A DNA stretch of 64,000 nucleotides from Owenia fusiformis. Lineage: Eukaryota > Annelida > Polychaeta > Sabellida > Oweniidae. Shown here in pieces: positions 20,890-64,000 of this stretch. Position 1 is the stretch's first letter. Every line of letters starts with the position of its first letter. A program made the position numbers and the translations under genes. The stretch is taken from positions 21,466,931-21,530,930 of the forward strand of contig CAIIXF020000003.1 in the NCBI GenBank assembly GCA_903813345.2, given 5' to 3'. The notes under the pieces are model-generated. The model was not told the origin of the DNA and did no database searches. It saw nothing but the letters and a program-made list of their open reading frames with translations.

Positions 20890-21504
20890 ATTTATAGGAA
20901 ACAAACAAATATATGTATATGTTATAATGAATATTTATCATTTAATATAAATATATACAAACATGTTGGCATCTGGGCATCTCATGAATTGACTGTGACA
21001 CTCTCTTGCGTATGAAGTCGCTTCGTTTGCGACATGTGAATGAACGTTGAATTCTCCTTCATAGCAAATGAAATCAGTAGCCCCATAATGTGGATGGTGC
21101 TATATTTGAAAGCACCATAATGTGGATGGTGCGGCGTTAGTCTGAAAGCGCCATAATGTGGATGGTGCTTAGGTCTGTAAGCCCCATAATGTGGATGGTG
21201 CTTGGTTCGGAATGCACCATAATGTGAATGGTGCTAGTCTGGGAGCGCCATAATGTGGATGGTGCTCGAGTCTGAAAGCGCCATAATGTGGATGGTGCTT
21301 GAGCGATTGCGCCATAATGTGGATGGCACAACTGTTTGAAGCGCCATAATGTGGATGGTGCTCGAACAGTTAGATTCCATAATGTAATGGAATTGACGAT
21401 TGCCATGAAGGAGATACGAAAAGTATGTGATTGAATAAGAATGCAATGAACATATGAATTTGAACCTTGGGAATGGAACGAACGCAAGTAAGTGACACAG
21501 CCAA
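20890..21504 (-). repeat. Ngaro split direct repeat B2
   Basis: This 615-bp copy matches 21806-22420 at an offset of 916. It carries about nine spaced copies of GCGCCATAATGTGGATGGTG, each ending in GTGC or GTGCT, separated by 10-20 variable bases. Confidence 0.85.
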
Positions 21505-21806: not shown

Positions 21807-22420
21807 TTTATAGGAAACAAACAAATATATGTATATGTTATAATGAATATTTATCATTTAATATAAATATATACAAACATGTTGGCATCTGGGCATCTCA
21901 TGAATTGACTGTGACACTCTCTTGCGTATGAAGTCGCTTCGTTTGCGACATGTGAATGAACGTTGAATTCTCCTTCATAGCAAATGAAATCAGTAGCCCC
22001 ATAATGTGGATGGTGCTATATTTGAAAGCACCATAATGTGGATGGTGCGGCGTTAGTCTGAAAGCGCCATAATGTGGATGGTGCTTAGGTCTGTAAGCCC
22101 CATAATGTGGATGGTGCTTGGTTCGGAATGCACCATAATGTGAATGGTGCTAGTCTGGGAGCGCCATAATGTGGATGGTGCTCGAGTCTGAAAGCGCCAT
22201 AATGTGGATGGTGCTTGAGCGATTGCGCCATAATGTGGATGGCACAACTGTTTGAAGCGCCATAATGTGGATGGTGCTCGAACAGTTAGATTCCATAATG
22301 TAATGGAATTGACGATTGCCATGAAGGAGATACGAAAAGTATGTGATTGAATAAGAATGCAATGAACATATGAATTTGAACCTTGGGAATGGAACGAACG
22401 CAAGTAAGTGACACAGCCAA
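21806..22420 (-). repeat. Ngaro split direct repeat B1
   Basis: Internal copy of the 615-bp B repeat, adjoining A2 directly and sharing the spaced GCGCCATAATGTGGATGGTG motifs. Confidence 0.85.
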
Positions 22421-22731: not shown

Positions 22732-23775
22732 TCAGGTGTGTGGTGAAGCCATGGCCCGTTGGCCATCTTTAAGAAGTTGATCATTGGGGCGTATATATCG
22801 CCTGAATGAGTCTGATTTCCACCTGCCAAGTGTCATAATTAAACTATCTCCCAGGTGAGAATAAGCTGCACTTGATGCGGCGCCTATACGAAATGAATGT
22901 CCACTGAAGTGAGCCGGATCTAAGCCAATGTTATGTAAATGTTGTTTCATTGTACCGATAAAGCTGTCACGGCTTAATGTTGTGCCCTCCAGTGTGAGGA
23001 ACAGAGGTCCCGATGGGTTTGAAGAATGTTGTTTTTGCCTTACGTCGAGGTATAATTGCATAGCTTTAACCGCACATGTCACGGAATCCGGATTTGAATA
23101 AATGGGTATCGTGACGCCGTCGCCCGTACGATCGGTTTTAGATGACTTCAGGTGATATGTGAAATAGCCTTGGTACATTTTAATGTCCTGTAATAACACG
23201 ACGTTTTGCCCTGGTTGCGTTGTAAATTCTCCACATCTCAGAAATCCAAAGAAAGCCAATGTATAGACTGCCGTAAACATAATATTTTCGTACGGATCAA
23301 TGCGTTTCGTGACCAAGAATCTGCATAAAGTAGCGAGAATTTCATGAGTTATTGGGCGTCTTAGAGATTGTTTGTTATCCTGAAGCTTGAGTATCGTATT
23401 TAGGATCGTAGAAATCCGCGGCATGAGTGTCCCGTCAGCAAGATGGAAGGGGTTATTTATCCCAATACGCATGAACACGTATCTCAGTCCTGATAGGTAC
23501 AGTCGTATTGTTGAGTGCTTCAATCCCTTAAGATGACAATAAGATATGAAGCGCAGAACAATTGCTTCTGATATTGGAGGAATATTGTTGTGTGTGAATT
23601 CAACACCGTTAACCTTGAGGAATCCTAGATACGATTTATATCCCTCGTTATACACCTGTTTAGTTTTATGGCTGAGCGATAAGTCCCATAAATGATCCAA
23701 ATGCGCGTCGATAACACTCACTGCCAGATTACTTGCAGTGGGTTTGGACAGGGGCATGGTGCGGCGTCTGCCCAT
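22732..23775 (-). CDS. Ngaro tyrosine recombinase
   Basis: A 347-residue frame with a phage-integrase-like fold. An N-terminal core-binding part (about residues 25-120) is followed by a catalytic part. The box HSFRIGAASSAAYSH and the later GRWKSDSFRRYIR give the H-x-x-R and nucleophile tyrosine of the family. In DIRS-order elements this enzyme integrates a circular DNA intermediate without duplicating the target. Its start overlaps the end of the reverse transcriptase frame in another phase, as is common in the family. Confidence 0.88.
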   Translation of the reverse strand: MGRRRTMPLSKPTASNLAVSVIDAHLDHLWDLSLSHKTKQVYNEGYKSYLGFLKVNGVEFTHNNIPPISEAIVLRFISYCHLKGLKHSTIRLYLSGLRYVFMRIGINNPFHLADGTLMPRISTILNTILKLQDNKQSLRRPITHEILATLCRFLVTKRIDPYENIMFTAVYTLAFFGFLRCGEFTTQPGQNVVLLQDIKMYQGYFTYHLKSSKTDRTGDGVTIPIYSNPDSVTCAVKAMQLYLDVRQKQHSSNPSGPLFLTLEGTTLSRDSFIGTMKQHLHNIGLDPAHFSGHSFRIGAASSAAYSHLGDSLIMTLGRWKSDSFRRYIRPNDQLLKDGQRAMASPHT

Positions 23776-25337
23776 GGTACCAGCTCCTTGAAGCGATCTA
23801 TCTGCAAACGACTTAGACTGTCGGCGATATTGTTCGAATTGCCTTTAACGTGGCGAGCGTGAAAATGAAAATTACTTTCACAGGCTCGCCACGTAAGGTT
23901 GCGCATCAATTTCATGATAGGCAACACCTTGGACCGTCCTTTATTTATTATTGATACTGTTGCTTCATTGTCACACATGAACACGATGCTTTTCCGAGAC
24001 CAAAGACTCCCCCAGATGATGGCGGCCACGACAATGGGATATAGTTCTAAGAACGCAATGGAAAGATCATGGCACTCGATTGAAGGGAGTGTTTCGGGCC
24101 AAGGTTCGTAGAAATATGCCCCATTGTAGAAGCCGCCATGACCAAGGGAAGCTGCTGCGTCAGTATATAGGTGCATTTCATTTGATAATATTGGAACTTG
24201 TTCATAAAATAAATTCACTCCGTTCCAGTTCGTCAAAAATGTTTGCCACATTGTGAGATCCTCTCGACAATGCTTGTCGAGATATACGTGTTTAAATGGC
24301 GTGTCTACGGATGATGCAAGTTTATACAGATAAGATACAAAACTCCGTCCGGGCCTAATAACTCTCGAGGCGAATTGTAGGTGCCCGAGAAGTTGTAAGA
24401 GTTGTATTTTAGTACACGTTTTTTGCTTCGAAATAGTATTGATGAACGTTGAGATACGTTCTAATTTCTCGACCGGTAGCCTAGCTTCCATGTTACGTGA
24501 GTCTAATATAATCCCTAGATATTCGAGGCATGTAGTTGGTCCTACAACCTTATGCGGGGAAAGAGGGATATTTAACTTGTTAAACAACATGGTCATAATC
24601 GCCATGGTTCTGTGACCCTCTTCCCAACTTGACGTATTGATTGCCAGGTGATCATCCAATAAATGGATCAAGAAGTCGACATCGTATTTATTCTTGCCAA
24701 TCCATTCAACGGCTTGGGAAAGGGTATCATAGATCTTAGGGGAAGATCTACATCCGAAACTAAGCCGATGTGATACGTAATATTTATCCTTCCATTTGAT
24801 GCAGAACCAATGCCATTGTTCAGGTTTGACGGGAATAATTTTAAAAGCGTCTTTTACGTCCCATTTCGATAGTAACGCATTCCGCCCTTTAGATAAAATG
24901 CCTTTAATAGCAGTATCCAGAGTTACGTATTGCAGGCTGCATTTTTCCTTATCAATAAAATCGTTGATACTATAGTCCTGATCGTTATGGGGAGATGACA
25001 AGTCTATTATCATGCGTTTCTTTTTAGAGTATTTGCTTTCTGCTATTCCAATAGGGCTAACTCGAAAGTGCGCAAAAGGTGGTGTTACGAATGGGCCTAG
25101 TAAATATCCCTTAGATAATTCTGTATTCAGCAATTCTTCGACGATCTCTGGTTGCCGACGCGCTGATAATAAATTGTTACAGATTCTGTTGGGGATAGAG
25201 ATGCCTTCAGGTTGTTCTACTAGGGTGTCGAATCCATATTCGAGGCCGTTGCATAAGTAATTAACGAAATTCGCGTCGGGGTGGTGAATTAAATCCATTC
25301 GCAATTGAGGAATATTGATGGGGGTTGAAGCGTTCAT
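23718..25337 (-). CDS. Ngaro reverse transcriptase / RNase H
   Basis: A 539-residue frame. The reverse transcriptase part includes KWDVKDAFKIIPV (first catalytic aspartate region) and FLIHLLDDHLAI (the DD box), followed by the thumb and then RNase H with LYTDAAASLGHGG and FMCDNEATVSIINKG. The domain order without a DDE integrase, and the neighbouring recombinase, identify a DIRS-order element. It acts in cytoplasmic or nuclear copying of element RNA. Confidence 0.9.
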   Translation of the reverse strand: MNASTPINIPQLRMDLIHHPDANFVNYLCNGLEYGFDTLVEQPEGISIPNRICNNLLSARRQPEIVEELLNTELSKGYLLGPFVTPPFAHFRVSPIGIAESKYSKKKRMIIDLSSPHNDQDYSINDFIDKEKCSLQYVTLDTAIKGILSKGRNALLSKWDVKDAFKIIPVKPEQWHWFCIKWKDKYYVSHRLSFGCRSSPKIYDTLSQAVEWIGKNKYDVDFLIHLLDDHLAINTSSWEEGHRTMAIMTMLFNKLNIPLSPHKVVGPTTCLEYLGIILDSRNMEARLPVEKLERISTFINTISKQKTCTKIQLLQLLGHLQFASRVIRPGRSFVSYLYKLASSVDTPFKHVYLDKHCREDLTMWQTFLTNWNGVNLFYEQVPILSNEMHLYTDAAASLGHGGFYNGAYFYEPWPETLPSIECHDLSIAFLELYPIVVAAIIWGSLWSRKSIVFMCDNEATVSIINKGRSKVLPIMKLMRNLTWRACESNFHFHARHVKGNSNNIADSLSRLQIDRFKELVPWADAAPCPCPNPLQVIWQ

Positions 25338-25352
25338 GATGTCGGGAATCAG

Positions 25353-26363
25353 TCAATTTTTATTCTTTCCCTCGTTTTTCCTAGATGAACGAGAGGACGG
25401 GGAGATTTTCCTGCCTTCGGAATCTACGCGGACGTGAAGCCTGTAACAATCATCGTAATGACAGCCGCCTTCCGGGTTGAAGTTGTTGCAAACAGGTCTA
25501 GATCTTCCGCGTTCGTCTTCGGAGTATATCACTTTTCTGCCTTGTCTATCTGTGTTTTGTTTACCCCGTTTTGCCTCGGATTGTGATGTTTTTCCATTAT
25601 CGACATCAACGTGCTTTGAGTTGAGGACGAGCTGTAATAGGCGAGTGTCCACTTGTCCCCAGTCAACTTTGATTTGATGATTGATCCAAGCGGCGCACGC
25701 TCTTCCTGTGAATAACTTGTGGTATTCGTAGAATACGGCACCGTTTGTGTTGTGAATATCCAGAATATTGTACATGTATTGGCTAAGTTCATCGGCGCGG
25801 GAGGGGTAAGCGGCTAACATTATTCGCTTATACTTTTCGAAGGCCGTGATGAATTCTGCAATGGTGAGATGGCGCTTTAGTTTTGGGTCGTTATCCATAT
25901 TAACAGCCTTGAGCGTCAGTTTTCCGTCGGCCTCTGTATCCAGGGACGGGGCTTTTGATATCTCATAATACGGTATTAACAGACAAGCCATGTTGATGTA
26001 CTTTCCCGCGAGAATGGCCCGTTTTACACTCGGAGAAATTACATCAATCATCGGGATATCATTTGGATGGATACCTTTCTCGCCAAGTCCTCGTACGATT
26101 GTACTAGAAGATGCGTCCCAAGGCTCCAGGTTTCTCTCCGCCGATGACGAGGGTGTGGGCACCGGCGGGTCTGATGGTCCTGACGGGGCCTCTAGCTTGT
26201 CAACGAGAATGTTGACTGCCTTGGTTAGAGTCTCTACCGATTCCTTGAGATTACTATTAGTTGCCTCATTAGAGCTATCTGACGGCGTTTTCGCATACGG
26301 CTTCTCCACACTTTTCTTCTTTGTTTGTTTTTGATTTTTAGATTTTCCTCTAGTTGAAGGCAT
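25353..26363 (-). CDS. Ngaro Gag-like protein
   Basis: The frame is open from 26462, but the upstream part lies in repeat A1. I prefer the ATG at 26363 (MPSTRGKSKNQKQTKKK), giving a basic N-terminus, a variable middle, and a C-terminal finger CNNFNPEGGCHYDDCYRLH of C-x7-C-x4-C-x3-H type. A zinc finger near the C-terminus of the first frame is usual for Ngaro Gag-like proteins, which bind the element's RNA. Confidence 0.75.
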   Translation of the reverse strand: MPSTRGKSKNQKQTKKKSVEKPYAKTPSDSSNEATNSNLKESVETLTKAVNILVDKLEAPSGPSDPPVPTPSSSAERNLEPWDASSSTIVRGLGEKGIHPNDIPMIDVISPSVKRAILAGKYINMACLLIPYYEISKAPSLDTEADGKLTLKAVNMDNDPKLKRHLTIAEFITAFEKYKRIMLAAYPSRADELSQYMYNILDIHNTNGAVFYEYHKLFTGRACAAWINHQIKVDWGQVDTRLLQLVLNSKHVDVDNGKTSQSEAKRGKQNTDRQGRKVIYSEDERGRSRPVCNNFNPEGGCHYDDCYRLHVRVDSEGRKISPSSRSSRKNEGKNKN

Positions 26364-26390
26364 TGTTGAAATAATATTTTGGTTGATATA

Positions 26391-26576
26391 ATAGCTATGG
26401 ATAAATTGATGTTCGCTGGTCGCTAGGTTCAATCGAATAGAACGACTGTATCGTGTGTGCAACGGATAGAGTCACGTTCATCCATCCGAATGATTGACGT
26501 GAAGGCGGGGCATGAGAATCAGTATGAATATTTTTCAAGCTTCCTATAAACGATGCTTAACAATATTAAGCAACCA
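26391..26576 (-). repeat. Ngaro split direct repeat A1 (5' end)
   Basis: 186-bp 5'-terminal repeat of the element, identical by eye to 21621-21806. The right border of the insertion is after CAACCA. Confidence 0.85.
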
Positions 26577-42900: not shown

Positions 42901-45900
42901 CATTTCTCATAATTTTACACTTAGATTTCAAATGTGATATCACTTTGACTGAATTTAAATGCAAATCAAGATTATTTCTAGTTGCATCTAGTCTATGAAT
43001 ATTGCTATGCTCATAGCCAAATGCTGGTCACAAAGATGGTGGCTAATAATATGTCACCACTTTCCAGTCAATAGTGACAAAAATCAAACTGAAAAGCCTA
43101 TCAATAGATCATTGACATATTATGACTAATTATACTAATTTACATTTGATATCAGTTTGATTATCTCAAATGAGCATAAAATAAAATTAATTTCAAAAGC
43201 TTCCCCCTCAGCTTTCCTCAACATCAAGGAGGGAAGTACGGGAAATTACTCATTTATCTCACTGGAGTAGCTGGGTATGGCAATGGGAGATTTTAAATAA
43301 ATTAAAATTCTTCTTTCGTTTCATAAAATAAAGAGGATCATGTTTGTGTAAAATTACGATGATGAAGACAAAGTGAAGCTGAAACACAATCCACAGACAA
43401 AGGGCAAGCATGGTACCTCTTAAATAAAAGACTTCTGAATACAAAACATTGATCGGCCTCAGTTACATTTATTCACTGGTTAGCCCCATTCACTTCATAG
43501 AGCCAGGCCAAAATCAATTTAATATACAAATGTGTATTGGATTCAGGTCCAGCATTTACTAAAAACAAGAACCTTTAAAGACTAGTGTTGAAGTCATCAA
43601 TATAAATGGAACAACACTGGAATCTATTACATAACACACTCACACTTGAGCACTAGGAATACTGCCATGGAGTCGACATTGCTCTTGATTTTAATAGCAG
43701 GTTATCTCATTGCAGCTTCTTTTGCAAATCCAACATGTCCAGGTAGGATAATATATATTTGTTATCAAATTTGATTTCGTCAATTCAAATGGGGAGGTGC
43801 ATTTCTGATAAAATTCTAAGCTGAGAACGCTTACAAAAATGACCCCATGTTTTTTTGTATTTCTTCTTAAAGAAACAAAAAGTGTATGAAACACCTTATT
43901 CTTTATTTGAATTATATTTCTGTTTGATGTATTACAGGTGACTGTTACTTTGGTGACTACCTGCTAGTAAGAGTCCCCGAGGCTACAAGTCCTGACTGTC
44001 AAGTATTGAATACAACTGATGATGTTAAGCACTCACGCGAGTTATGTTTTGCAAAAGCATGTGAACTAGGAGGAAATGTCATACAATATGGACAGGGGGG
44101 AAACTGTGGAATTTACAAATGTAACTCTAATATAAATGGAACAGATTGGGACTATGCATGGGTTGATAAAGGTATACACCAACCAGTCTACGCAAAGCCA
44201 CATCCGTATATACCAAGGTGCCACAGTTCGCATTTCATGAGAAGATGGTGGCAAGAATCAGTCTCATCACAGTGTGATTCTATCACTACAAACACTGTTA
44301 ATGACCTTCATGAATGCATGTCCATTGCTTGTCATGACAAGGCAAATGTGTTCAACTTTTACCCTAATGAAATGCCACAAAGATGTGAAACCAAGTTCTG
44401 TAAATGGAATGCTGAGGCCAATGATTACGATTTCAACTTCAGAGATGATGAGAATCATACAGTTTTGATTTATGGTTTATCTCATTTAGCTGTAAATTGT
44501 AACAATAGTCAGTTTAAAACTGAAAAAATACAACTTCCTGGTCCAGAGTGTAAGGAGACACATTTGTGTGGGAATCATACAGCTGGTGAGGTGTTTTGTA
44601 AAGCTGGTTCTAACGTTGTTACAAGGTTTACAAATTCAACAACTAATTTTTCTACAGCTTGGACATGTGGAAGTAACCATGAGGGGACAGGATGGAAATA
44701 CTATAGTGATAAAAAAACTTGCTACCAAATAAAGTCAGAAACACAATTTGAGTGGCTAATTGAACCGTATCCCGGAACCCCCCTATGCAATTCTTCTATG
44801 TATGTAATGAAAAGACTTAAACATCAATGTTTGATGTCAATGTGTACCCAATCAGTTGTAATCCACCAAGCAAAGGACTTAAGGCAGTGTATGTTATACG
44901 CCTGTGAATACAAGGCCAATGTCATAAATTACTTCAGCAACATTAACAGTTCTGACAATTTATGTGATCTTAGATACTGTAACATAAATCACAGTGGTGA
45001 ATATGACTTACAGCTGGGAGATACTAATCCAGGATATGATATCTATGCCATTGTTATCCAGGATGAGACATCTACATCCTCCACTGTGATGACTTCAATG
45101 GTAACTGTTATAGCAACAAGTACAAGTGGTCCAAATAGTACAACAGAGCCTGTTACTGACTATTTTACAAATTCAACTTTGAACTATATGCCTTCTCTTT
45201 CTCCTCTGAATAATGCTACTTTTGAAGCTCAAACAAATACCAAACCATTTGACTTCAGATTAGCTACAATTATTCTTGGAGCCATTCTGTTTGTTGCATT
45301 ACTTGTGATGGTTGTTATATTGGTTCTGTGTAGAAGGCAGCAAAATAAAGGAATCAATGTCTCAGACAGTGCAGGTGGTGAAAACATCACCGCTATTGAA
45401 GGTCCTGCCACAACTTATGAAGACCTTGATGAAAGAAATAACAGCATAGTAGTGGGTATAAAATATGAGAGTTTAGAAAATAAGTGCTGTGATGAGTATG
45501 AGGATGTCATCATCCCAAGGCTAAACAAAGCAGGAGACACAAAAACCAAAACTGGTCAGAACCAACCTGGAGAATCCAATGAATATACTGATATGAAACC
45601 TTTATCAAACAATACCAGCAATTCAAATGCCAAAAGTATTCAGAACCAATCTGAAGAGGCTACTGAATATGATGAGGTGAATTCCTGGTTGACCCCAGGA
45701 AACAAAGAAATGAAAAGTCATGAACTTCCAATTGAATGCTCTGGTGAATATGCTGAGGTTAAAACCACTTCAAACAACACAGGAGTACAAAGCTACCTTG
45801 AAGTCTCTAATGAATATACAGAGCCTAAAACCACATCAATCAATACAGGAGTACAAAGCCACCCTGAAGTCTCTAATGAATATGCTGAGGTTCAAACCAC

Positions 45901-48900
45901 ATCAAACAATACAAAACGTCAACCTGAAGTCTCTAATGAATATACAGAGCCTAAAACCACATCAGTCAATACAGGAGTACAAAGCCACCTTGAAGTCTCT
46001 TATGAATATGCTGAGGTTCAAACCACATCAAACAATACAAAACGTCAACCTGAAGTCTCTAATGAATATACAGAGCCTAAAACCACATCAATCAATACAG
46101 GAGTACAAAGCCACCTTGAAGTCTCTAATGAATATGCTGAGGTTCAAACCACATCAAACAATACTAAAAGTCAACCTGAAGTCTCTAATGAATATACAGA
46201 GCCTAAAACCACATCAATCAATAAAGGAGTACAGAGCCACCTTGAAGTCTCTAATGAATATGCTGAGGTTCAAACCACATCAAACAATACAAAAAGTCAA
46301 CCTGAAGTCTCTAATGAATATGCAGAAGTTAAAACTTCATCAAACAAAACAAGGGTACAAAGCCACCTTGAAGTCTCTAATGAATATGCTGATGTTCAAA
46401 CCACATCAAAAAATACAAAAAGTCAACCTGAATTCTCTAATGAATATGCTGATGTAAGTATCTCTACAAATGATGCCAGAGAAATTTCAAAATCAAAAGA
46501 TGACAGTATTCAGAAAGAAGTTATCAGCTCAAATGAATACACTGAAGCTGAAATGTCACCAAATGATGAAGAAACTTCAAAGGTTAATATTGTGCAGAAC
46601 CAATTTGAAGGTGCAATTGAGTATGATGAAATCAACAACTTGCGATGTATAAGAGATACAAAAGATGAAGGCATTCAAAGCAAACTTGAAAAGTCTGGTG
46701 AATATGCTGAGGTTATCCCTGCACCAATCAATATAGATTGTTCAAATTCAAATGGTGCGATCCATGGTGACAGTGCTAATAATAACACATATATGGAAAT
46801 GTCAGGCTCTAGCCGGAATAGTCTGAACCAATTTGGAGACTCTTACGTACATGCTGATACTGACCTTCAGCCAAGTAACATAGCAGAATCAGACAACAAA
46901 GATATGGAGACTCAACTTGGAAGGTCTGATGAGTATAAGTCTCCCAAACCATGGATAAAACAATCAAAAGATGAAAGCATTCAGACCAATTTTGAAGATT
47001 CCACCCAGTATGATCTCCCAAATCCTACATGGCCAAACATTATTGGAGACCCACTTTATGGTAATATTCAAAATCAAATGCAAGGAACAAATGCTATAGT
47101 CTGTAGTGACTATGAAGTTCCTATATCTGTCCATTATGCTCCAAATGAGGAATATGATGAGGTGAAGAACTGGTTGAGCTAAATAGCTGATAAAGTAATA
47201 TAATATTATGTATGATTTTGTAAATGGCATTTTAATATTTCATAGTTTTATATACATGTAGAATATGTAGTGCTTCTATCAAACCATGGTGTTATGAAAT
47301 GTCAACGCTGTGTGGCGTAATTGATTGTTTTTTTAAATACTATAGATTGGGTTAATTTGGCGCTAATTAATTTGGCGATTTTGCATAATGGCGGCTAACT
47401 TCCATATACACTGGACTAAAATAAAAATTATTACACATATTCCTTCAATTCAACTACTATATCTCGCCAGTAATTTATTATAGACAGAATCCTTGTGGTA
47501 ATGCTCAATCATATTGATGTTTATTCAGCTTATCCTTTTCAGATTTTGTAAAAACTAAACTTAAAGTGACTTAAATACACCGGACAATAGTATAGTTTCT
47601 AAATAGCTAAATAAAGCTGAATAAAGCTGACATAATAGATGTCACCTTTGTTCATCTTGGGCCAACCTTCCATTGAGTTCTATGCTAAAAGCTTGCAATA
47701 GTCACTTATTTCCATGATTTATCAAGGGGGTTAGTTAAATCTGTCTGAAACTTGAATGGCATACTATTAAATGACCCTGTCAATGAACATATTGTGATTA
47801 AACATGAAAATGTCGGTTGTCATACGATTAAACCATGGTTTTAAAGAATTTTAGCATAACATCAATGGAGATTTGGCTCAAGTTTTTTTAAAATGTCATG
47901 GAGAATGATTTAAATGACATTAATGTGTAAATCAAAGCTATTATTGTAGGAAACATATCGCTGAATTCAAATATGCTATTAAAAACAAAGAAAAGTAAGT
48001 CATTAGAGGTAAAATGTGCAAATCTCTTAAAATCTCATGAAAAAAACGAGAATAAGCGAGATTTCAAAATCATTTAGAAACTCCTCTATTAAAGTGGGCA
48101 CCAAATTAACCCAATCTACAGTATGCTATAAGCATTGGACATACATACATGTCTATTTTTCATTTTCAGACAAATGACAAGATTAATAATGCTTTGTTAT
48201 ATATTATACATATTGTATTTATCTGTTTTGTAGTTTTATCCACTTTGTGAATTAATTTTGTACTCGAATGTGAAATACAATATCTCATACAGCCAAATTA
48301 ATTTTATTTTCAAAGGGTAATGTGGAAATGCACTGGTACATACACCAAGTGTTGTTAATTCATAAAATAAACTTTGAATCTCTGTGTTCTTGCTATATTT
48401 TAGGCATTAGATTTGTATAGCCTTTCATGTTTTCAAAACCTAATTTCAAATTTATGATGGCCATAAACAGAAATGGTATAAGAAATATCTAAAGCATGAA
48501 AAACAAGGTATGAATATACTAGTGTAGTGTAGCAATAAATGTAGTATACATTATTTTTATCTCTTGTGTTCACAAATACTTGCGCTAAAGCCGAGGAAAT
48601 AAGCAGAAATATAAATTAAAATTGAGTGCTCCCTTTCTATAGTCTTGTTGAAACACACTTTTCTATATGTACAAAGCAGGTTCCAGAATCAAAAAGAAAT
48701 ATAACCCAAATTAAATTATGATTATTCATAAGAGGACATTTAAATCTACAAGATGTAAAAATATCAAAATTGTCCAAAGAAGGCGACACATGCAGTAGAC
48801 CAATTCAATAAAAAACAAGTCTCGATTTGGAGAAAGAAGTTCATCAGTGTACTGCGTCAATAATCTTTTTGAAAAATATAGAAATGTCACCCAAATTGAA

Positions 48901-51900
48901 TTATTAATATTAAATAGAGGACATTCAAATCTACGATATGTAAAAATATCATAATTGTCCAAAGCAGGCGTAACGTGCAGTAGACCGATTCAATAAAAAA
49001 CAAATCTCGATTTGGAGAAAGAAGTTCATCAGTGTACTGCGTTAATAATTTTTCTTTGAAAAATATGGAAATGTCACCCAAATTAAATTATGGATATTCA
49101 GAAGAGGACATTTAAATCTACGATATGTAAAAATATCAAAATTGTCCAAAGCAGGCGTAAGGTGCAGTAGACTGATGAACTTTGTTCTCCAAACCGAAAT
49201 TCCAATATCAGAGCTGCACAATGAGACCTTCATAGCGTTTGTGCCAGCTATCAGGTGATAGCATCTGTCAGTCAGTTCAATCAGTCTCAAAAAACTTGTC
49301 TGTGTGTCAGTTCTATTGATGTGTTTCAAAAAATCAAAAATCTGTTCTGTCCAAAATTTCAGTTTTGAAGGATTAACAATGCCTTACTGTGAAAACGATA
49401 AGGCTAATATTGAAGCCTGTTTCAAGGTGAAAGGATGGGTGGAAGATGAATTGTAAAGGAATTAAGGTCAAGAGTTTGAGTCACATAACTGTAAATAGAC
49501 TCATGAACAAAAATGCACTACATCCAACATGCATTAAAGGATGAGATAATCATGTCATGGGAGGCGATATCATTGAAAGAAATACACACAGGCATTTTTT
49601 CTTGGAAAACGGCTTCTTCCAGACTGAAATAAGTGATTTTTTCTGTTGATATTGGATATTTTGGCATGCTGAAAAAAAGAATTTGGCTATCAATTGCTTA
49701 AAAAATACTTGTCAAAAAGAGGATCACTTTTTTGGGGACACCCGATATATTAATTTGCCCAAATACCCAACATTAAGTTCTTAAGGCACAAACTGCGTAA
49801 TCTGAAACCTACAAAAGTTAAGGAAAAATTCTTATACAGGTCCTAGTCAATTAAAATAAGGAAAATCAACAAAATATATTAGGCTAATTTCCGCTTAAAA
49901 TTCCCGAATTAAATCAACTTCCTACTTGAGAAGTATCACTCAAAGGCCCATAAAATATCTTAATAATAATAACTAAAGTTTCAAGTATTTTTCAAAATCA
50001 TTTTAAAATAACATTTCCATAAGGCAAATCATGCCAAATGGAAGAATATTGCCAAATAATCAGTCAAATGTGCCTTGATTTCCCTCTCTCACCACATGAC
50101 GTGTTATTACCATGCTAGTTGGTGAAAATAATGGACTGAGAGTGATAGCCATGTCAATTAATGAAGTGCATGGGGCAAGACCCAATATAGAGCTTTGATT
50201 TGAGCCACCTGTCTTTCCTTATTGAAAATACTTATATAATTCCAAAGTAGGTAGTTAAAGTAATATCCTGTTCATTTATCCTCATTGAAGATACTTTATA
50301 TCGATCAAAAATTTTCAATAAGCATCTTCCTTACATTTAAACATTTTAAAGGGTTTTGTCTATTTAAAATATCTTTGAGAAGTGATTCATTTTGAGCGAA
50401 TCAGGAACAACATAAAGAGTTTGCTTGGATAATGCAATCACTTTATATATTTGTTTCATAACTTCACAATGAAACATGATTCACTTATCATATATTTTTG
50501 GATCTAAGAAGTGGTATCGGTTAGGGGTACCGCGAGCGCTCGAGTGTTCGAGCGCTCCAGCAATTCACCTCCGATACAAGCTGTATCGATACATAAAAAA
50601 AATATCGGTCGTATCGTTTTTTGACCGGAAGTCCCTTCTTACTTACCCAAAGGAAGGGAAAAACTCAGCGCTTAGAGATGACAGACAGTCATAGTTACGT
50701 ATTTTGCTTGCCACCTTCGTTTGCCCCTCTAGTTCCCAAATATCACACGTCGTTAAGATGTTTTAATCGATGTTAGCATATTTTACACCTTTCTTTGTCG
50801 TGATGTGAAATTAACGTAATCCGGCTGAAGTACTTCCGGCTTTACACGTTTGAAAGATTAGAATAAAATTCAGTTTTACTTCAATTTACGCTGTATCATT
50901 GTATCGTATCGTTCGTATCGTATCGTGAGGTCAGTATCGTAGATACGTATCAATATTCAGTTTCTCGTATCGTGGTACCCCTAGTATCGATATGGAGAAC
51001 TGAATTCAAAAATGTTTTTTTCTTAAACCAATCATTGAAAACATTCTGTAAAACAACACAGTATTTTATGTTATGTTGACTGATTGACAACAATTTAATG
51101 CGAAAATTATTTAGAAATACTTTATACAACTGTTTTTGTTAAAAAATTTTGTTTTTTAGTGCAATTATTTTTGCTCCTTTCTACCAATTCTTGAGAATGA
51201 AATAAAATGTCTTTCCGAACCTTGTTGGAACAAAATAGCATATGCAACATGTTTTGAGAGTATTATAGTTATACAAAGGAATTTTTGGTTGATTTTAAAA
51301 AAGTGTTCAAAAAATTAAAACAAAATCCACCCAAAATCATAAATAAAAATCAAGATAAACCTTTTATTTCATTAACAAGACACTTTTTAAAATCAACCAA
51401 AATTTCCTTTGTACAATTACAATATTGAGAGACCTAATCATGTTCTGTTGTGTTTATGTCGCTTTGTTCCAATGAGGTTCGGAAAGATGCTTCATTTCAC
51501 TCTGGAAACATGATACCAAGAACAAAACAAGTGTTTGATGTGTTTTCTAAAACAATATAGATGAAAGTATATATATATTTTTCAAATTATATTGTTACCA
51601 TTCAAAAGATGACCATTAAATTGACGATGTGTTAAATTTTTAATTTTTTTATGACTGGTTTAAGAGAAACATGTTTTCAAAAAGTTCTCCATATTGATAC
51701 CACTTCTTTATGTTTTATGGATTATGACATGTGGTGTAGTGTAAAGTCTCCGATAAATCGGACTACGTATACCGCCGTGTTTACATTAGGGGATTAGAAG
51801 AGTTTACTTTTATTTAGGTGTGCAAGCAATATCAATATTAGGCCTTCATGCATGTACTCGTGTGTACAATCAGCATGCCCTTCAATATTATATAAACCAG

Positions 51901-54900
51901 GCTATTCAAGTACTACATAATGTACACTATTTATGTGTGTACTACATGGGAATACGATTCCCTGGGAAACAAAACACAAATACTTTTTATATGTTCAAAA
52001 TGAGCCATTTGATTGATGCATACACTTAATAGCTCATTAATCACCCTATGCAGACAGAGCCTGTGGGAAATATTGGGTGCGGAGCAAATGAGCGGAGGGT
52101 GCGGAGCTAGCGGTCATTTTTGAATTTAAATTTGGGATATTTCTGAAACTAAACCGTTTTGGGACTTCAAATATACCAAGATATGTGTATTTGACACCAA
52201 ATATCAATACAATTGTGAAAATAGTAGCGCAATTCATTCTATAGCGACGCAGTGTGCCTTAAACTTTTCCCAGACCTATATATGAGTCCCCAGCATTCAT
52301 AAAAAATGTAGTTCAAGGTACACTATCTATACAAATTATTTTTGCATCTTGGAAGCCAGGCAGTATCTGTGTGATTTTATAAAAATTCGGAAATGTTTTT
52401 CAGATATGAGCCCCCTCTAAATATTGGGTGCGGAGGAGCTCCATAAACGTACCTCCGCACCCAATATTTAGAGGGGGCTCATATAGCATATCTTTATGTT
52501 TTATGGATTATGACATGTGGTTTAAAGTTGAAAGCCAATACTCATAGCATCAGAAAAGCTGTAGATACTATACTAGTATCCATAATATTCAGCATTCAGT
52601 CCCAAGCGATGTGGGACAGAAGTCCATTAGCATATCTTTATGTTTTATGGATTATGACATGTTGTTTAAAGTTGAAAGCCAATATTCATAGCATCAGAAA
52701 AGCTGTAGATACTATACTAGTATCCATAATATTCAGCATTCAGTCCCAAGCGATGTGGGACAGAAGTCCATTAGCATATCTTTATGTTTTATGGATTATG
52801 ACATGTGGTTTAAAGTTGAAAGCCAATACTCATAGCATCAGAAAAGCTGTAGATACTATACTAGTATCCATAATATTCAGCATTCAGTCCCAAGCGATGT
52901 GGGACAGAAGTCCATTAGCATATCTTTATGTTTTATGGATTATGACATGTGGTTTAAAGTTGAAAGCCAATATTCATAGCATCAGAAAAGCTGTAGATAC
53001 TATACTAGTATCCATAATATTCAGCATTCAGTCCCAAGCGATGTGGGACAGACAAAATCTAGTCTCAAAGTCCATTAGCATATCAAATGGTCAACATCCA
53101 TCTGCAAAGCCAGCACCCTAATCCATAAATCGCCATATTTCACAGTTGTCACCAGGAGAAAACTATGGCTGGTTTTTATCTGTATTTCTCAACCATAACT
53201 GGTCATAAGAAGAAATCTCACAATATCCCAAACCCAGGCCCAAACTGTGATCTAACTATAAAGAAACACCTTCTCCATCATCTAGAAATCTTCTGATATC
53301 AATATCCTCATCCAGAAATCACATCCAAAACCACAGGACCTTTCAACATTTAATTCATACTGAAGTTATTGAAATACATGATGATGACCAAATAAAAGAG
53401 AATTTCAAATACCTAATTTCAACATTGAGCTGATACTGGGTGTTGAAGATCAAGGCACAAACATTTATCAAAAACAAGAACCTTTAAATATAGAGACCCC
53501 TTTATAAATGAACGCATTGCAACTGGATGTCACTCGCTCTCTCTGCTCTACTGATTAAGTACAACACATGGTAGCCATGAAGATCATAATTATATTGATG
53601 ATACATGGAGCATGTCTCATTTTTGCTTCTCTTGGGCCCCCAGCATGTCCAGGTAGGGTATTATCTATTATTTGTACAATTTAGTGTTTGAAAGTAGTTA
53701 AAAATTTAACACAATTTATCAAGTCAACTAAACTTAATTTTCCTCTGATATTTTTCTTTCAAGAATTGATGACTATTAGTCTATATGATGTCTCATTAAA
53801 AACAGAATTAAAGATATATGGAATGGCAAAATTGCAATCAACATGCACAATTAACCTGCCATGTATTTTGCTCCTCCAAAAAGACCTGTTAAATCTTATC
53901 AAATTGGAAAGTTATTTAAGAAAAAAAGCCAAAATTAAGTTGGTTCAACCAAATAATAAATATAGATATACTACACATTTCTAGAAAAATGAACACATAA
54001 ATGTCAATTTTCATGGTTTTGCTGGAATGAAGTATGAACTTTGGGAATCAACAAAATAAATATGACAAAAATGATGTGGTTCTATTATAACCTTTTCTAA
54101 AATTCAAACAACTGTTTGAATGAAATGTTGTTTGCTAGATCAACACCATTTGGCACAGACAAATAACTCAAATTTTTGATATTTCTAAATTAAATATATG
54201 TGTATTACAGGTGATTGCTACTTTGGTGACTATCTAGTGGTAAGAATGCCTGAGCCAGATGATCACTTTGCAATTCCTTCATGTCCTATATTGAGCAAAA
54301 CAGAAGGTATATATAACACAAGCCAGTTATGTTTTGCAAAAGCTTGTGAACTAGGAGGAAATGTTATACAACACCGACCATGGACGGCGGGTCATCATTG
54401 CGGAATTTACAATTGTAGTTCCAATGTGGACGGGACTGACTGGGACTTCAAATGGACTCACGATGAGAGCATTTATCCGCAGATTTATGCAAAGCCACAT
54501 CCTTATTCCCAAAGGTGTCACAGTTCTTATTTCATGAGAAGAACATGGCGAATCGGTATGACATCAGTTGCCTCTCAGTGTCTCCCTATCGCTACAAGAC
54601 CTGTTGCTAATTTGAGTGAATGTATGCATGCTGCTTGTCATGACAAGGCAAACGTGTTCAACTTTTACCCCAATGAAGCACCACATAGATGTGAAACTAA
54701 GCACTGCAAATGGAATGTCAATGCCAATGATTATGATTTCAAATTCAGCAATGTAGAAAACAGTGTGGTATTGGTTTATAGTTTATCCCACTTAGCCACA
54801 CATTGCAACAGTACTCAGTTTAAAAGTGAACCAATACAACTATATCCTAAGTGTAGAAGAGCATCTGTCTGTGGACAGGGTAATGTGGAAGAGTTCTGCA

Positions 54901-57900
54901 AAGGTGGCTCAAATGTCATCTCACATCATCCCAAAACTAACGATTCTTTTGATGCATGGACATGTTCCAGTAACCATGAGGGAACAGAGTGGCAATTACA
55001 TTATAAAGATAATGACACATGTTACATTTCAGTAGAATATACAGAGTGGCTAATTCTACCATATCCAGGAACTCCAGTCTGCCATTCTTCCATATATGCG
55101 ATAAAAAGACTCAGCAATAGATGTCGCATGTCAACATGCATGAAGTCAATTATGATCCACCAGGCAAGGGACTTGAGGCAATGTATGGTATATGCCTGTG
55201 AATATGAGGCTAATGTCATCAATTACTACAGTAACAGTTCTGAAAACTCTGTGATTTGTGATCTTCGATTTTGTAATTCATTTCAAGATGGTGAATATGA
55301 GTTACAGTTGGAGCGAAGTTCACCTGGATATGATATTTATGCCCTTGTTGTCCAGCCTGGAACTACAACAGAAACTGTCGTGGTTGATGGATCTACTCGT
55401 ACTTGCAATTATGATGCAGAAACTACAAAATTGAGAACAACTGCTATCATTCTTGGGTCTGTTCTGTTCGTTGCAATAAGTGTGATAGTTGTTCTATCAG
55501 TTATGTACAGGAAGCAGCAATTGCAGGTGTTGCAACATGGAAAGGGAACCACTATCTCACACAATGCGGTAACTGATAACATTACAATTGAAAATACTGC
55601 CAACATGTATGAAGACATACATGACAGAACAGATGCAAACAACACAAGAGACTCAGGATATGAATGTATTCAGAACCAACTACAAAAATCAAATACTGAA
55701 ATCTGTAATGGTCCCTATGAAGTCCCTAGCCCTAACAAACTCCAAAACTAAGGGAGTCTAATGTGTAAATGTAGAAAACATTAAGTGGGGAATTTCTGGT
55801 CATTTAAAGGGCAATTTATAGGAAAAATTTAGTTTCCATATTGCACATTTCTAGCAGTTGTCATCATGGCAGAGTTCCGTCCACATGTGTGTGACAGTTA
55901 TGTACAAAGATATATAGATAGGATTCATACAGTGGCTTATAGGGAGGCTAGAGACTCTGGTGCGACCTTTATCACTAAAAATGGGTAGCAGACAAGGGGA
56001 ACAGATCACCAAACTGAGTCCAAAAATGACCAGAAATTTCGCTCTAAATGACCCCATACACACATACTTTGATACATTGTATCTTTTTTCAGGGACACCC
56101 CTGGATTCTGAACTTTGCAATCTTATGTAACTTCCCATAAAGAACAAAATGATATAAAATAACATGATAGGGTAGTAATGCCATATGTATGAGTTTATGG
56201 GGGTGTATACATATGAAAAACCCTGTATAATCACTGCTACCCACCTAATTACACAGCTGATCGTCGGTGTATCATGGCGGAACTTCCTCCGGGACTAGGT
56301 TTCGGCTTTACACCTACTTATAAGTCACGTTGTGGATAATAATTTGGCTCGAAGTTAAGGAAGATAGTCTAGTTTGAGAATGTGTCGATGGTTTTAGGTT
56401 TTATATGTTAACAAAGACACAATTCACGTATTTAGTCCCTCGCTTTTCTTACACTGACGATCGGCATTAATATTGCCAATATTACACTGATATTGGTCGT
56501 TCGTCAGTGTAAGAAAAGCGAGTGACTAAATACGTGATTTGTGTCTTTGTTAACATATAAAACCTAAAACCATCGACACATTCTCAAACTAGACTATCTT
56601 CCTTAACTTTGAGCCAAATTATTATCCACAATGTGACTTATAAGTGTGTGTAAAGCCGAAACCTAGTCCCGGAGGAAGTTCCGCCATGATACACCGACGA
56701 TACGTCTGTGTAATTAGGTGGGTAGCAGTGATAATTAAGTTTTACAAAAGTCTGTTTAAAACTATGTACTTTGTACTTGTATTTAGCTATCATAATTTTA
56801 TGATAGTTGTTACAGTACTAATGTCTGGTGTAAACAATATATTGTATTCGGTACATAATATAAAATGCCTTTATTACAAAAATCAGTGATCCTTTGAACA
56901 GATCTAGAATATAGTGATAAAAATATGAGGCAACGCAGAAAAGAATCCCAATGGAGAAAACCTTTAAAAAGTTGAATCTATCACTGTCTATCGGATTATT
57001 TCATGAACTATAGAAAAATCTACTAAGAAAATAGAGAAGTACTTTTTAAGTTAAGTTTACCTTAATTCTAGCTGCCCTGATATCCAGCAGTTGTGCATAT
57101 TCCTCTAACTTTGTCTCATATTCTTTACGATTTTCCTCCATCTTTGAAGTCACTGCTGCCACCTATTATATATTCATAGAAATGATGCAGTTGCTTGTTG
57201 AAAATCATATTTAAAATATTTCACTAATTAATCAATTGTGAGATCTTTACAAAATGATTCTTTGAGCTGAGCCAATATGCTACTACAACATATGTAACAA
57301 TTAATACTGTGTATAAAAATAAAGATATATATGTATAAAAAATTAGTTCATACTTTTTTAACCTTTGATACTTGGTTATCTGATTGACCCGTATGATGAA
57401 AAACTATCTAACTAGAAAAAAGAGGGCAGGTGGATATTATACCTCTGTCTGGTAGTCTTTATTGATCCTATGTTGCACTATCAACATGTTACGTGTCTTC
57501 TCTAGTTCATTAATGGTTTCAGCATACTCTGCTTGGATCTCAAGAATTTCCTTAGTAGCATCTGAAATACAACATATACAAAAATATAAATAAATAATAA
57601 TTGCATTTTTAAGTTTATATTACAAATGTTATGTATACTCTTGTTAACATATATCACAACATTTTAGGATTCAAATATGCATTGAATTGAATTTATTGAT
57701 TATAAAGTTTCTTTTATTACGATTAGTGGTCTCAAAGATTTTCATGGAAAAACTAAACAGAAGTTGTGATAACCCATTTCCCCCAAATTAGCAGGCATTA
57801 ATGAAATTGCAATGGACATCAGTATGAAAAAAAAAGTTTAATCTGAATCACAAATGACACTCTGGCAGATTTCTCAGTTTAAGTGATTTTTACAATTCAT

Positions 57901-60900
57901 TGTTTTCTTCCAATTATATTTTCTCCAACAGTTGCCTTTCAAGAGAGTGGCATGCAGTTTAGCGTGACCTCAATTATAAAATGCACACAACACTATGCTT
58001 CTTGTTCATTGTAAAATGTGCAGAGAATGTATAATGTTTCACATTTAAAACATGAAACATTCTATAACAAATGCCAAACAATTGTATTTTAACAAGAGTA
58101 TAAACAGGGAGAGACTTTTTTAATTTTGTTTTATTTTTTAATATTCATATATTTTCTCTCTTTTGTTTTTGTTTAGCAGGAGTTTAAAAAAGAAGTTGGA
58201 AGTGCAATTTTTGTAAAACATGAGTTAAGACAAATGAAAGCATGAGTAACATTTTTATTCTCAAATGTAATAAAATTTCCTGTAAAATTAAATCCACTTT
58301 AAGATTTTAACAAATGGTTTAAAACTATATCCTAAACAAATAAATATAAAATTCTGTCACTCCATTATTTGCAAGGGTGTGAAGCAATTTATGATCTATG
58401 ACATATTGATCTGCTTGTCTTTTTTATGTCAGAATAATTTCAGCCAGGGCATTATTAGCACTCAATGGCTATCAATTAAAAACACTATTGTGACAATCAA
58501 TTATATTGATACCTGTAATGCACTAACCTGCACATTTCAACATTATATCTACTAAGAAAAATATTTCGACATTTTTTAAATTGCCAAACATTGCATTTGT
58601 CTTTTCATGGCTAAAACATCATATAATGAATATACTCAACCATACAAACTGGTTATTAAGTTTTATTTTGAGTTTGAATAAAATTAAATGTGAAGTTTTA
58701 TTTATGGGTTCAGCCTTCACCTATAGATAGTTCTTTTGTCATTTCATTAGGTTCATAATCACTATGTATTGTTTTCCAATTAGACTTCCTGAGAGTGTCT
58801 AGGCGTTAAAATATGATGTCTCTCTGGGGTAGCATTGAAGCCACAGCATAGAGGGCTCCTTCATTAGCTACTGGCCCCATGGGTATCAAACACCAGGTAT
58901 ATTACCTGTCAAGTGTTTTTCCCCTTTCAAGAAATGTCACTCTAACATGTATTTTAAAGCCTATGTGTTGTAAAAATGTATGTGTAGTATAATGTTTTAT
59001 ATATCAGAGGCCAAGCTACAAGGAATGCTATTTTCTCGATGAGTAATATCCTGGGTTTTACTGTCTTTGGACAGAATATACAGTTTAGTTCAGACAATAT
59101 AGTTAGAATTTTATATTGGGGGATACATTTTCACCTCTAGCCCCCCAGTCAACCTGTCAAGTTTTATCAAGGCCACTAATGATAATCAGTTTTCCGATTC
59201 GCTGAATTCAATCCCCAAGGATGTATATTAATGGAATTTAATGTATAAATCGCCATTGTCCTTGCTTAGAAAATACCTTTGAAATATAGGTGAGACATTA
59301 AATGAACAGCCACTTAATGTTATATCTCAATTCATCATTTAGCATTATTGAATATTAAGGTGCTAAAAATGAGAGTTGCAAATTGTGAACATAAAATCGT
59401 AATCAGGTAGCCCATAAGCTGTCAATGTTTAGGGGCATTATAACAATGTATTGTGGTTAGCGTTTTAGCATCTACTCCGACTACATGAAAAGCCCCTTAC
59501 CACTAACTTTATCATAACCCATTATGAGCTGAATGTGCCTTTTATTGGGCACATATGTTTTCAGATGTTCAAAAGTGGAAAACATTGTAATACCAGAACT
59601 AGAACAGGATTTAGAGTGTATCAAATCGTGAACATAAAAGTAAAATTAATTTGCTTGTCATGGTTAACCGATTATATGCAGACATAACCCTTTCAGGCAA
59701 AATCAAGAATCTTTTATTATTTTCAAGAAAATGTAGATGATAAAACAGCTAGTAATATACAATTCTCAAATATCAAATCAAAAGTAGGCACATTTTAATT
59801 GATTTATCATTAATCGCTCATCTTGATATATTTCTTGGTTGAAACAATATACTTATTTCGTGCCAAAGTGTCACATTCTAGACTATTTATTGGATGTATT
59901 GTAAATTGGTTGTCATGAAGATGACATCCTATTGCATGGCGTATAACATATGTTCAGTGGTATTTTTACATGTCACAAAGATAAGTTATGGTATAGATTG
60001 GAATAACATGGTATAATATGGTATAACAAATCTGTTGATGCCCTATTCTAGAACATGTTACAGATTATGTTCTATGGTGGTTCCACTTGTCTAGTAGTTA
60101 CGGTATGTTCTGATTACAGTATGTTCTGAAACTGTCATTTTTGTGCTATGTTGAAATTTTCAGTTGTTGACTCTGTTGAATCTGTTTCAGTGGAGAGAAT
60201 TAACTCTGATATTTGGCAGAATATTTCAAATGGTGATGGGAATATGAACTTTGTCTTTTTTACTTCTTGACACATTTTTGAAGATATCTATCCCTGTCCC
60301 TAAACCAACATTTTCAGATTTCTTTTAAGAATCCAGTACCAACAAGAAGTGAAATGTTAACATGTGGTATTATGCTAAATAAATGACTTACTCAGATAAA
60401 TTTTAAAGCACTTGAAAAACTTTGAGAAATCTGTATAATGTTTGCACAAATTTTGCGTAATGAACTTATAAAAGTATTTGATTAGTGCTGTAGAAAAATT
60501 ACGATTGGAAATAAAATTTTTGATATAAAAAAAATAAATAATTTTCACATTTCCTTTAAGAATCCAGTACCTACCAGAAATGAAGTGTAAACATGTGGTA
60601 TTATGCTAAATGAATGACTCACTTGGATAAATCTTAAAGCTTCTTGGACTATCATTCAAGTCAATAATTTGGCCATTTCCCCTAAGAGAACTGTAAATAT
60701 GTGTAAAAACTAAGCTTTGGATGAAATAATCTTTCTATACCCAACAGTCTAAATTAGGGATGGGTTCTGGGAAATGTGAAAAAGATTTGTTGATTTCAGG
60801 GACAGAAATTTTAAAGTTTAAATCACTGACATTTCTTTCCATCACTTACTCAATTCCCTCCACTATTCCAGAGGAAATATTAAGTTCTTGAAGCACTATT

Positions 60901-63597: not shown

Positions 63598-64000
63598 CTA
63601 CAATGTAAAAACACATATTAGTATCCTTATGTAATCAACTTCACATATGAAATTGCTTTAGAACTAGTGACCATACACAAATGTCCATCCAATGCCCATA
63701 TTATGTACAAACCATAGCTATGCCCCTGGTTACTTAACAAATAATGTTGTGCTTATCAAGGACAAAAACAATAACAAAAAGTATAATTCTGCTGGAATTA
63801 TGATCACTAAAGTGATAGATAGCACTCTTGATATATTTCAGACATTAAACTTTAAGGTTGATTGAAGGGTGTTCATTAAGACAAGGACTGTAAAACATGT
63901 TCAGAGGAACACATAAGTGGAACAGGTTTCAGAGTCCCATGAATAATTGACTTAATGTTAAATGAACCTCTGTAAGTGGAACATATCCCAAATGGAACAC
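63598..64000. other. RPGRIP1L intron at right edge
   Basis: Polypyrimidine-poor acceptor ACATTGTAG next to exon 1. No further exon seen before the window ends. Confidence 0.5.

Follow-up and report, generated by a model that had tools for sequence, protein, structure and literature searches.

Two receptor-like paralogues with predicted PAN/apple-like modules and tyrosine-bearing tails, nested in an intron of an RPGRIP1- or RPGRIP1L-type gene of the annelid Owenia fusiformis

A stretch of 64,000 nucleotides from the polychaete Owenia fusiformis (assembly GCA_903813345.2, contig CAIIXF020000003.1, positions 21,466,931 to 21,530,930 of the forward strand; referred to here as the window, whose numbering is used throughout) carries two related genes, A and B, inside a single intron of a gene on the opposite strand, and raises the question of what kind of proteins such a nested pair might encode. 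An initial reading of the letters alone (the sequence-only reading) had taken them for an undescribed pair of receptors, one long and signalling and the other short and non-signalling. From the analysis reported here we consider, with a probability of roughly 0.6, that A and B are paralogous, kinase-lacking type I single-pass receptors in which PAN/apple-like extracellular modules would be joined to cytoplasmic tails acting as multi-site docking surfaces for SH2 proteins.

Each gene consists of two open exons on the plus strand. The first exon (43667-43742 in A, 53577-53652 in B) encodes a hydrophobic leader, judged by reading of the sequence, and the second (43938-47182 and 54211-55751) completes predicted proteins of 1106 and 538 amino acids. 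In A, four putative PAN-like modules (approximately residues 28-402) are followed by a stalk, a membrane span and a tail of 616 residues; B likewise has four such modules and a membrane span, and its tail is about 79 residues long. There is one strong hydrophobic span per protein, at approximately residues 467-492 in A and 435-458 in B. The single intron of each gene is bounded by GT and AG, lies in phase 1 and interrupts the same glycine codon. BLASTP aligns the two proteins at E 1e-180 with 279 identities in 562 aligned columns (50%), and their ectodomains share 227 of 376 aligned residues (60%) and all 26 of 26 cysteines. In these respects the sequence-only reading, which had described two two-exon paralogues at 43667-55751 with a common intron position and phase, a leader, a cysteine-rich ectodomain, one membrane span and tails of these two lengths, has held up well.

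The divergence between A and B bears on whether both are still maintained as proteins. By the Nei-Gojobori method (NG86), the ratio of nonsynonymous to synonymous substitution rates (dN/dS) is 0.29 over 373 ectodomain codons, at a synonymous divergence (dS) of about 1.0, and the values for modules 1 to 4 taken separately are 0.21, 0.29, 0.34 and 0.29. Over the 74 codons of the membrane and juxtamembrane stretch the ratio is 0.45, and over the 22 codons of the short leader it is 1.27; with the leader excepted, these values fit two maintained proteins. The genes also share a 19-nt upstream block, AAAAACAAGAACCTTTAAA, which occurs twice in the window and solely in front of A (43561-43579, plus strand) and B (53470-53488, plus strand). 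It is followed by TATAAATG at 43601 and 53503, so that the block lies 106 and 107 bases, and TATAAATG 66 and 74 bases, from the respective ATG codons. By itself TATAAATG is not rare (four plus-strand and four minus-strand copies in the window); together with the 19-nt block it might mark the core promoters of the two genes. Because the same intron recurs in two long frames that combine a dN/dS of 0.29 at a dS of about 1.0 with a common upstream block, the pair is more than a product of chance, and the status of A and B as receptor-like paralogues is supported by their architecture. The open frames, the matching splice sites, the substitution ratio and the shared block make it extremely unlikely that A and B are untranscribed copies or pseudogenes. 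No third copy was detected in the 64-kb window (tblastn, E <= 1). Searches of prokaryotic and viral collections returned pattern matches only (80 and 18 stretches), none of which was confirmed as a relative, a result that is uninformative on animals.

What do the extracellular portions of these proteins resemble? Comparison of eight pieces divides the ectodomain of A and that of B into four tandem modules of ~95 residues each, in place of the two-repeat, duplicated arrangement proposed earlier, and module 3 is the most divergent. With residues numbered according to module 2 of A, six positions are invariant in all eight modules (cysteines 1, 19, 38 and 61 and the pair Asn43-Val44), and cysteines 33 and 56 are jointly absent from module 3 of A and of B. 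No Pfam family was matched at its curated cut-off by residues 1-496 of A, by the whole of B or by any of the eight single modules. Below the cut-off, PH_21 (E 0.021), TMEM154 (0.16) and DUF2970 (0.21) on A 1-496 and DUF2187 (0.35) on B were set aside, as were the unrelated families DBD_Tnp_Mut, DUF2187 and DUF7418, which appeared on one module each (E 0.11-0.16). Searches of PDB sequences with A 1-496 and with a module profile gave weak matches, none of them convincing (an ErbB-2 membrane peptide at E 1.3; MOB1, p300 and similar entries at E 0.23-1.6).

A relationship at the level of folding is suggested by an AlphaFold2 model of module 2 of A, one of the eight modules, built from an eight-row alignment of the modules of one gene pair. 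The best model has a mean predicted local distance difference test score (pLDDT) of 73.3, a predicted template modelling score of 0.69 and the element order E-E-H-E-E-E; its pLDDT is 87-91 over residues 21-60, whereas four other ten-residue blocks have values of 51-59. Foldseek matched this model to 88 PDB entries at E <= 10, with probabilities up to 0.97, headed by HGF NK1/NK2 (E 0.026), HAI-1 (0.059 and 0.08), Wsc1 (0.062), SML-2 and factor XI. Among the best 50 of the 88 matches we count 44 as PAN/apple-type, the remaining six standing at ranks 30, 42, 44, 45, 47 and 48. Nineteen of the 44 we take to be of this type by our own assignment (the HAI-1 MANEC domain, SML-2, AMA1, SRK, plasminogen and saratin). 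The other 25 are identified by their titles or by PMC9024836 and comprise HGF, Wsc1, factor XI, kallikrein, Eimeria PAN, Toxoplasma apple and copper oxidase entries. A parallel search of viral models (BFVD) gave 165 matches, none at E <= 0.001; the best 50 of the 165 include 21 named PAN/Apple, 18 unnamed and 11 with other names.

The disposition of the cysteines points the same way. According to PMC9024836, Wsc1 shares its fold with the PAN/apple domains found in HGF, in factor XI and in a fungal copper oxidase, and two disulfides tie the helix to strand 4. In the model, cysteines 33 and 38 fall on the helix and 56 and 61 on a strand, placed as in the PAN core of Wsc1 (PMC9024836), and the joint absence of cysteines 33 and 56 from module 3 fits the pairing of that core, the bonds themselves being predicted. 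The fold of the PAN/apple superfamily, with its MANEC (HAI-1) and WSC (Wsc1, Kremen) members, is a sheet of five strands that wraps around a single helix. The modules would resemble the superfamily in their predicted element order and in carrying one pair of cysteines on the helix and another on the fourth main strand. We assume in this comparison that the MANEC domain of HAI-1 is of PAN type. They depart from the superfamily in matching none of its sequence families, in the Cys-x(4)-Cys spacing found on both helix and strand, in the Asn-Val pair present in 8/8 modules and in their occurrence four in tandem on a receptor with a tyrosine-rich tail.

Several of these results count against the PAN/apple assignment. 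The Pfam PAN and MANEC profiles match none of the eight modules, nor A 1-496, nor the whole of B; the four remaining models of module 2 have pLDDT values of 62.6-65.4; a model of the whole ectodomain from two rows reached 34.9 and was excluded from the fold searches; no PDB fold match attains E <= 0.001, the best being 0.026; and the TM-scores over the query are mostly 0.3-0.55 with root-mean-square deviations mostly of 4.7-8.5. One might therefore propose that the ectodomain has a separate disulfide-rich fold and that its likeness to PAN is an artefact of a weak model, as the best E value, the alignment drawn from one gene pair, the range of pLDDT in the five models (62.6-73.3) and a PAN fold search made without an unrelated small cysteine-rich domain as control would all permit. 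We consider this quite improbable, since PAN/apple-type proteins head the lists from two libraries (PDB and BFVD, best 50 of each) and module 3, in lacking two cysteines together, agrees with the disulfide pairing of the PAN core. A divergent PAN/apple-type (MANEC/WSC-like) fold is, in our estimation, probable for the module, and we treat the assignment as a strong lead, not as proof. The earlier claim that the pair belongs to no described family accordingly stands as far as significant matches in sequence libraries are concerned and gives way at the level of the predicted module fold, which points to the PAN/apple superfamily.

If the ectodomains suggest binding, the tails suggest how a signal might be passed on. 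Residues 497-1106 of A match no Pfam family and no PDB sequence at E <= 1, and Pfam finds no kinase domain in the tail of A or in B, so that neither is a receptor tyrosine kinase in the sense of having a kinase in its tail. The tail of A contains 30 tyrosines, with an acidic residue at position -1 in 21, an acidic residue at +2 in 22 and I, L, V, M or P at +3 in 26; shuffled tails average 5.2, 5.1 and 6.1, and the observed counts were reached by 0/2000 shuffles in each case. Fourteen of the 30 tyrosines lie within one tandem array (45745-46452, plus strand; 66/60-nt units forming a 126-nt super-unit present in 5.2 copies with 95% matches) and hence are not independent of each other. The 16 tyrosines outside the array retain the pattern (9 at -1, 9 at +2 and 13 at +3, counts attained by 2, 1 and 0 shuffles out of 2000).

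The tail of B carries three tyrosine sites, YEDI, YECI and YEVP, all with E at +1 and with I or P at +3, features reached by 5 and 26 of 2000 shuffles, respectively. Its first part aligns with the juxtamembrane YEDL/YESL of A (BLASTP) and its last part with the far end of A (YGNIQNQ...YEVP), with local alignment scores of 53 and 56 and with agreement from the DNA alignment for the latter; the middle tyrosine can be aligned to either end, and the end pieces used alone in tblastn give weak matches (E 0.47-0.48). The simplest reading would be that the tail of B corresponds to the two ends of the tail of A without the expanded middle, and the difference between the tails may have come about by internal gain or loss.

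Two observations on the tails speak against the docking interpretation. The pN/pS ratio of the array is 0.87 in the coding frame, and the two alternative frames give 0.49 and 1.34; the array, which we take to be young or homogenised, shows no clear constraint. In B, an acidic residue precedes none of the three tyrosines and stands at +2 in one of them, which makes these sites less A-like than the rule at +3 suggests.

The same differences bear on the proposal, close to the original view of a long signalling and a short non-signalling member, that B is a decoy that competes for ligand without signalling. A tail of about 79 residues against one of 616, ectodomains that are 60% identical, and the absence from B of the acidic -1 residue that is usual in A would all suit such a decoy. 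Yet B has retained three tyrosines, every one of them in the context of E at +1 and I or P at +3, and there is a resemblance between its tail and both ends of the tail of A. Moreover, 40% of the aligned ectodomain sites differ between the two proteins, which, with 10 glycosylation motifs in A and 7 in B, have one such motif in common, so that it is not a given that A and B bind the same ligand. A decoy role for B is thus decidedly unlikely, and the division into signalling and non-signalling partners is weakened and finds no support in the form in which it was put forward.

Receptors with multi-site docking tails, as we propose for A and B, can be compared with several known systems. DCBLD1 and DCBLD2 are transmembrane scaffolds with several YxxP sites in their tails, to which the SH2 domain of CRKL is recruited after phosphorylation by Src-family kinases or Abl, and their ectodomains consist of CUB, LCCL and discoidin domains (PMC6029619). 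A and B are similarly predicted to be transmembrane; A has seven YxxP sites in its tail but B only one, and neither A 1-496 nor the whole of B has a CUB, LCCL or discoidin match in Pfam. Immunoreceptors with tyrosine-based inhibitory or activation motifs (ITIMs and ITAMs) resemble the pair in the occurrence of long and short tails and of YxxI/L sites near the membrane. The ITAM rule is YxxI/L-x(6-12)-YxxI/L; the spacing in A (YEDL-x12-YESL) is at its upper limit and that in B (x13) exceeds it by one. Few sites in A have the I, V, L or S at -2 of an ITIM (by reading), and neither A 1-496 nor B has an immunoglobulin or lectin match in Pfam.

The protein p130Cas is cytosolic, with an SH3 domain and a long series of tyrosine docking sites. 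Its substrate domain shares such a series with A, where the sites are predicted, but the residue at +3 in A is proline (YxxP) in 7/30 tyrosines and I, L or V in 17/30. The resemblance invites an interpretation in terms of adhesion or mechanosensing, by which the PAN-like modules would attach to matrix or to adjacent cells and the repetitive tail would be a stretchable substrate of the p130Cas kind. In PMC5390273 Cas is presented as a docking protein whose substrate domain can be stretched, and in PMC9024836 Wsc1, which has a PAN/apple-fold domain, as a membrane sensor thought to respond to mechanical force; the tail of A contains 14 copies of a 69-nt tyrosine unit that are at least 64% identical. 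The sequence, however, gives no pointer to force or matrix over a soluble ligand and the array is absent from B, and we regard this interpretation as unlikely.

Our preferred reading, that of kinase-lacking docking receptors, starts from gene structure, leader, cysteine modules, membrane span, tyrosine tails and motif enrichment, all of which are seen directly, and adds a ligand, a kinase and an adaptor that we infer. The modules would bind a protein or glycan ligand, and the resulting clustering of receptors would expose the tail to a cytosolic Src-, Abl- or Syk-like kinase. Once phosphorylated, tyrosines in the contexts xEYxEV, YxxI/L and YxxP might be bound by SH2 adaptors, Crk or Nck for example. 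The tail of A, being long, would then provide docking of high valency, and the short tail of B, with approximately three sites, a weaker or different output, the difference in length having presumably arisen through internal gain or loss of the repeated tyrosine unit.

The gene in which A and B are nested lies on the minus strand. Its intron extends from the GT donor at 57060 to the AG acceptor at 41329 (15,732 bp), and the coding parts of A and B (43667-55751) lie wholly within this single intron, as read from the flanking exons, on the opposite strand, so that the antisense nesting within 15.7 kb noted originally is borne out. Downstream of the intron on the same strand are two exons matching the C2-C2_1 domain of RPGR-interacting protein 1 (PF11618; E 1.8e-13 and 7.4e-25) and two matching RPGR1_C (PF18111; E 2.8e-11 and 1.1e-9). 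The exons that flank the intron were taken as neighbours from continuity of frame and from the human protein, and the upstream coiled-coil exons were assigned by reading, without a Pfam match (the three minus-strand frames of 56001-64000 have none at E <= 0.01). The host, a cilium gene, is RPGRIP1 or RPGRIP1L, which the Pfam matches do not separate; the name RPGRIP1L is presumably apt, in that it agrees with the human protein around the intron. The nesting of genes in introns is an already known arrangement. According to PMC3786989, nested genes are found mostly in large introns and often on the opposite strand, and their share of all genes is ~6% for Drosophila melanogaster, 2.1% for C. elegans and 0.5% for human. 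No paper that combines a nested gene, RPGRIP1L and an intron was found in open-access full text.

Repeated sequences also occur in this intron and elsewhere in the window. Upstream of gene B, a 144-bp unit is present four times at 52484-53052 (98% matches), with a related 42-nt piece at 51697. Downstream of gene B, 56260-56701 holds a 204-nt inverted repeat of the hairpin type, with arms that are 97% complementary, 34 nt between them and a further flanking pair of 30 nt. A retroelement on the minus strand (22732-26471), which we take to be DIRS-like, consists of three adjoining frames, one without a Pfam match, one with a reverse transcriptase (PF00078, E 5.6e-10) and one with a tyrosine recombinase (PF02899, E 9.5e-6); a minisatellite block is repeated on one side of it, as 285-bp blocks at 21079-21363 and 21995-22279. 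Within 9015-13348, seven occurrences of one 15-nt tandem motif are spaced 717 bases apart, a regularity that points to a satellite-like array made up of 717-bp units. A plus-strand open frame of 151 amino acids at 18431-18886 has no Pfam match at E <= 0.01 and is possibly, by its reading, an exon of another extracellular protein. Rfam has no match in the window.

Invertebrates frequently have lineage-restricted receptors that are assembled from common modules. In A and B the parts are known and the combination of PAN-like modules with a tyrosine tail seems new; no receptor of this kind was found among titles in the open-access literature, which misses most subscription journals. We suggest tentatively, as a view with the odds against it, that the pair represents an undescribed family of animal receptors with tandem divergent PAN/apple modules and a phosphotyrosine tail of high valency, in which tyrosine units gained or lost would tune the strength of the signal from one paralogue to the other, perhaps in the service of immunity or self recognition in invertebrates. 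If A and B are transcribed and phosphorylated, a class with PAN/apple ectodomains would be added to the multi-site tyrosine-docking receptors that lack a kinase, and the two genes, with 30 and 3 tail tyrosines behind related ectodomains, would offer a compact natural experiment on how output is set by docking-site number.

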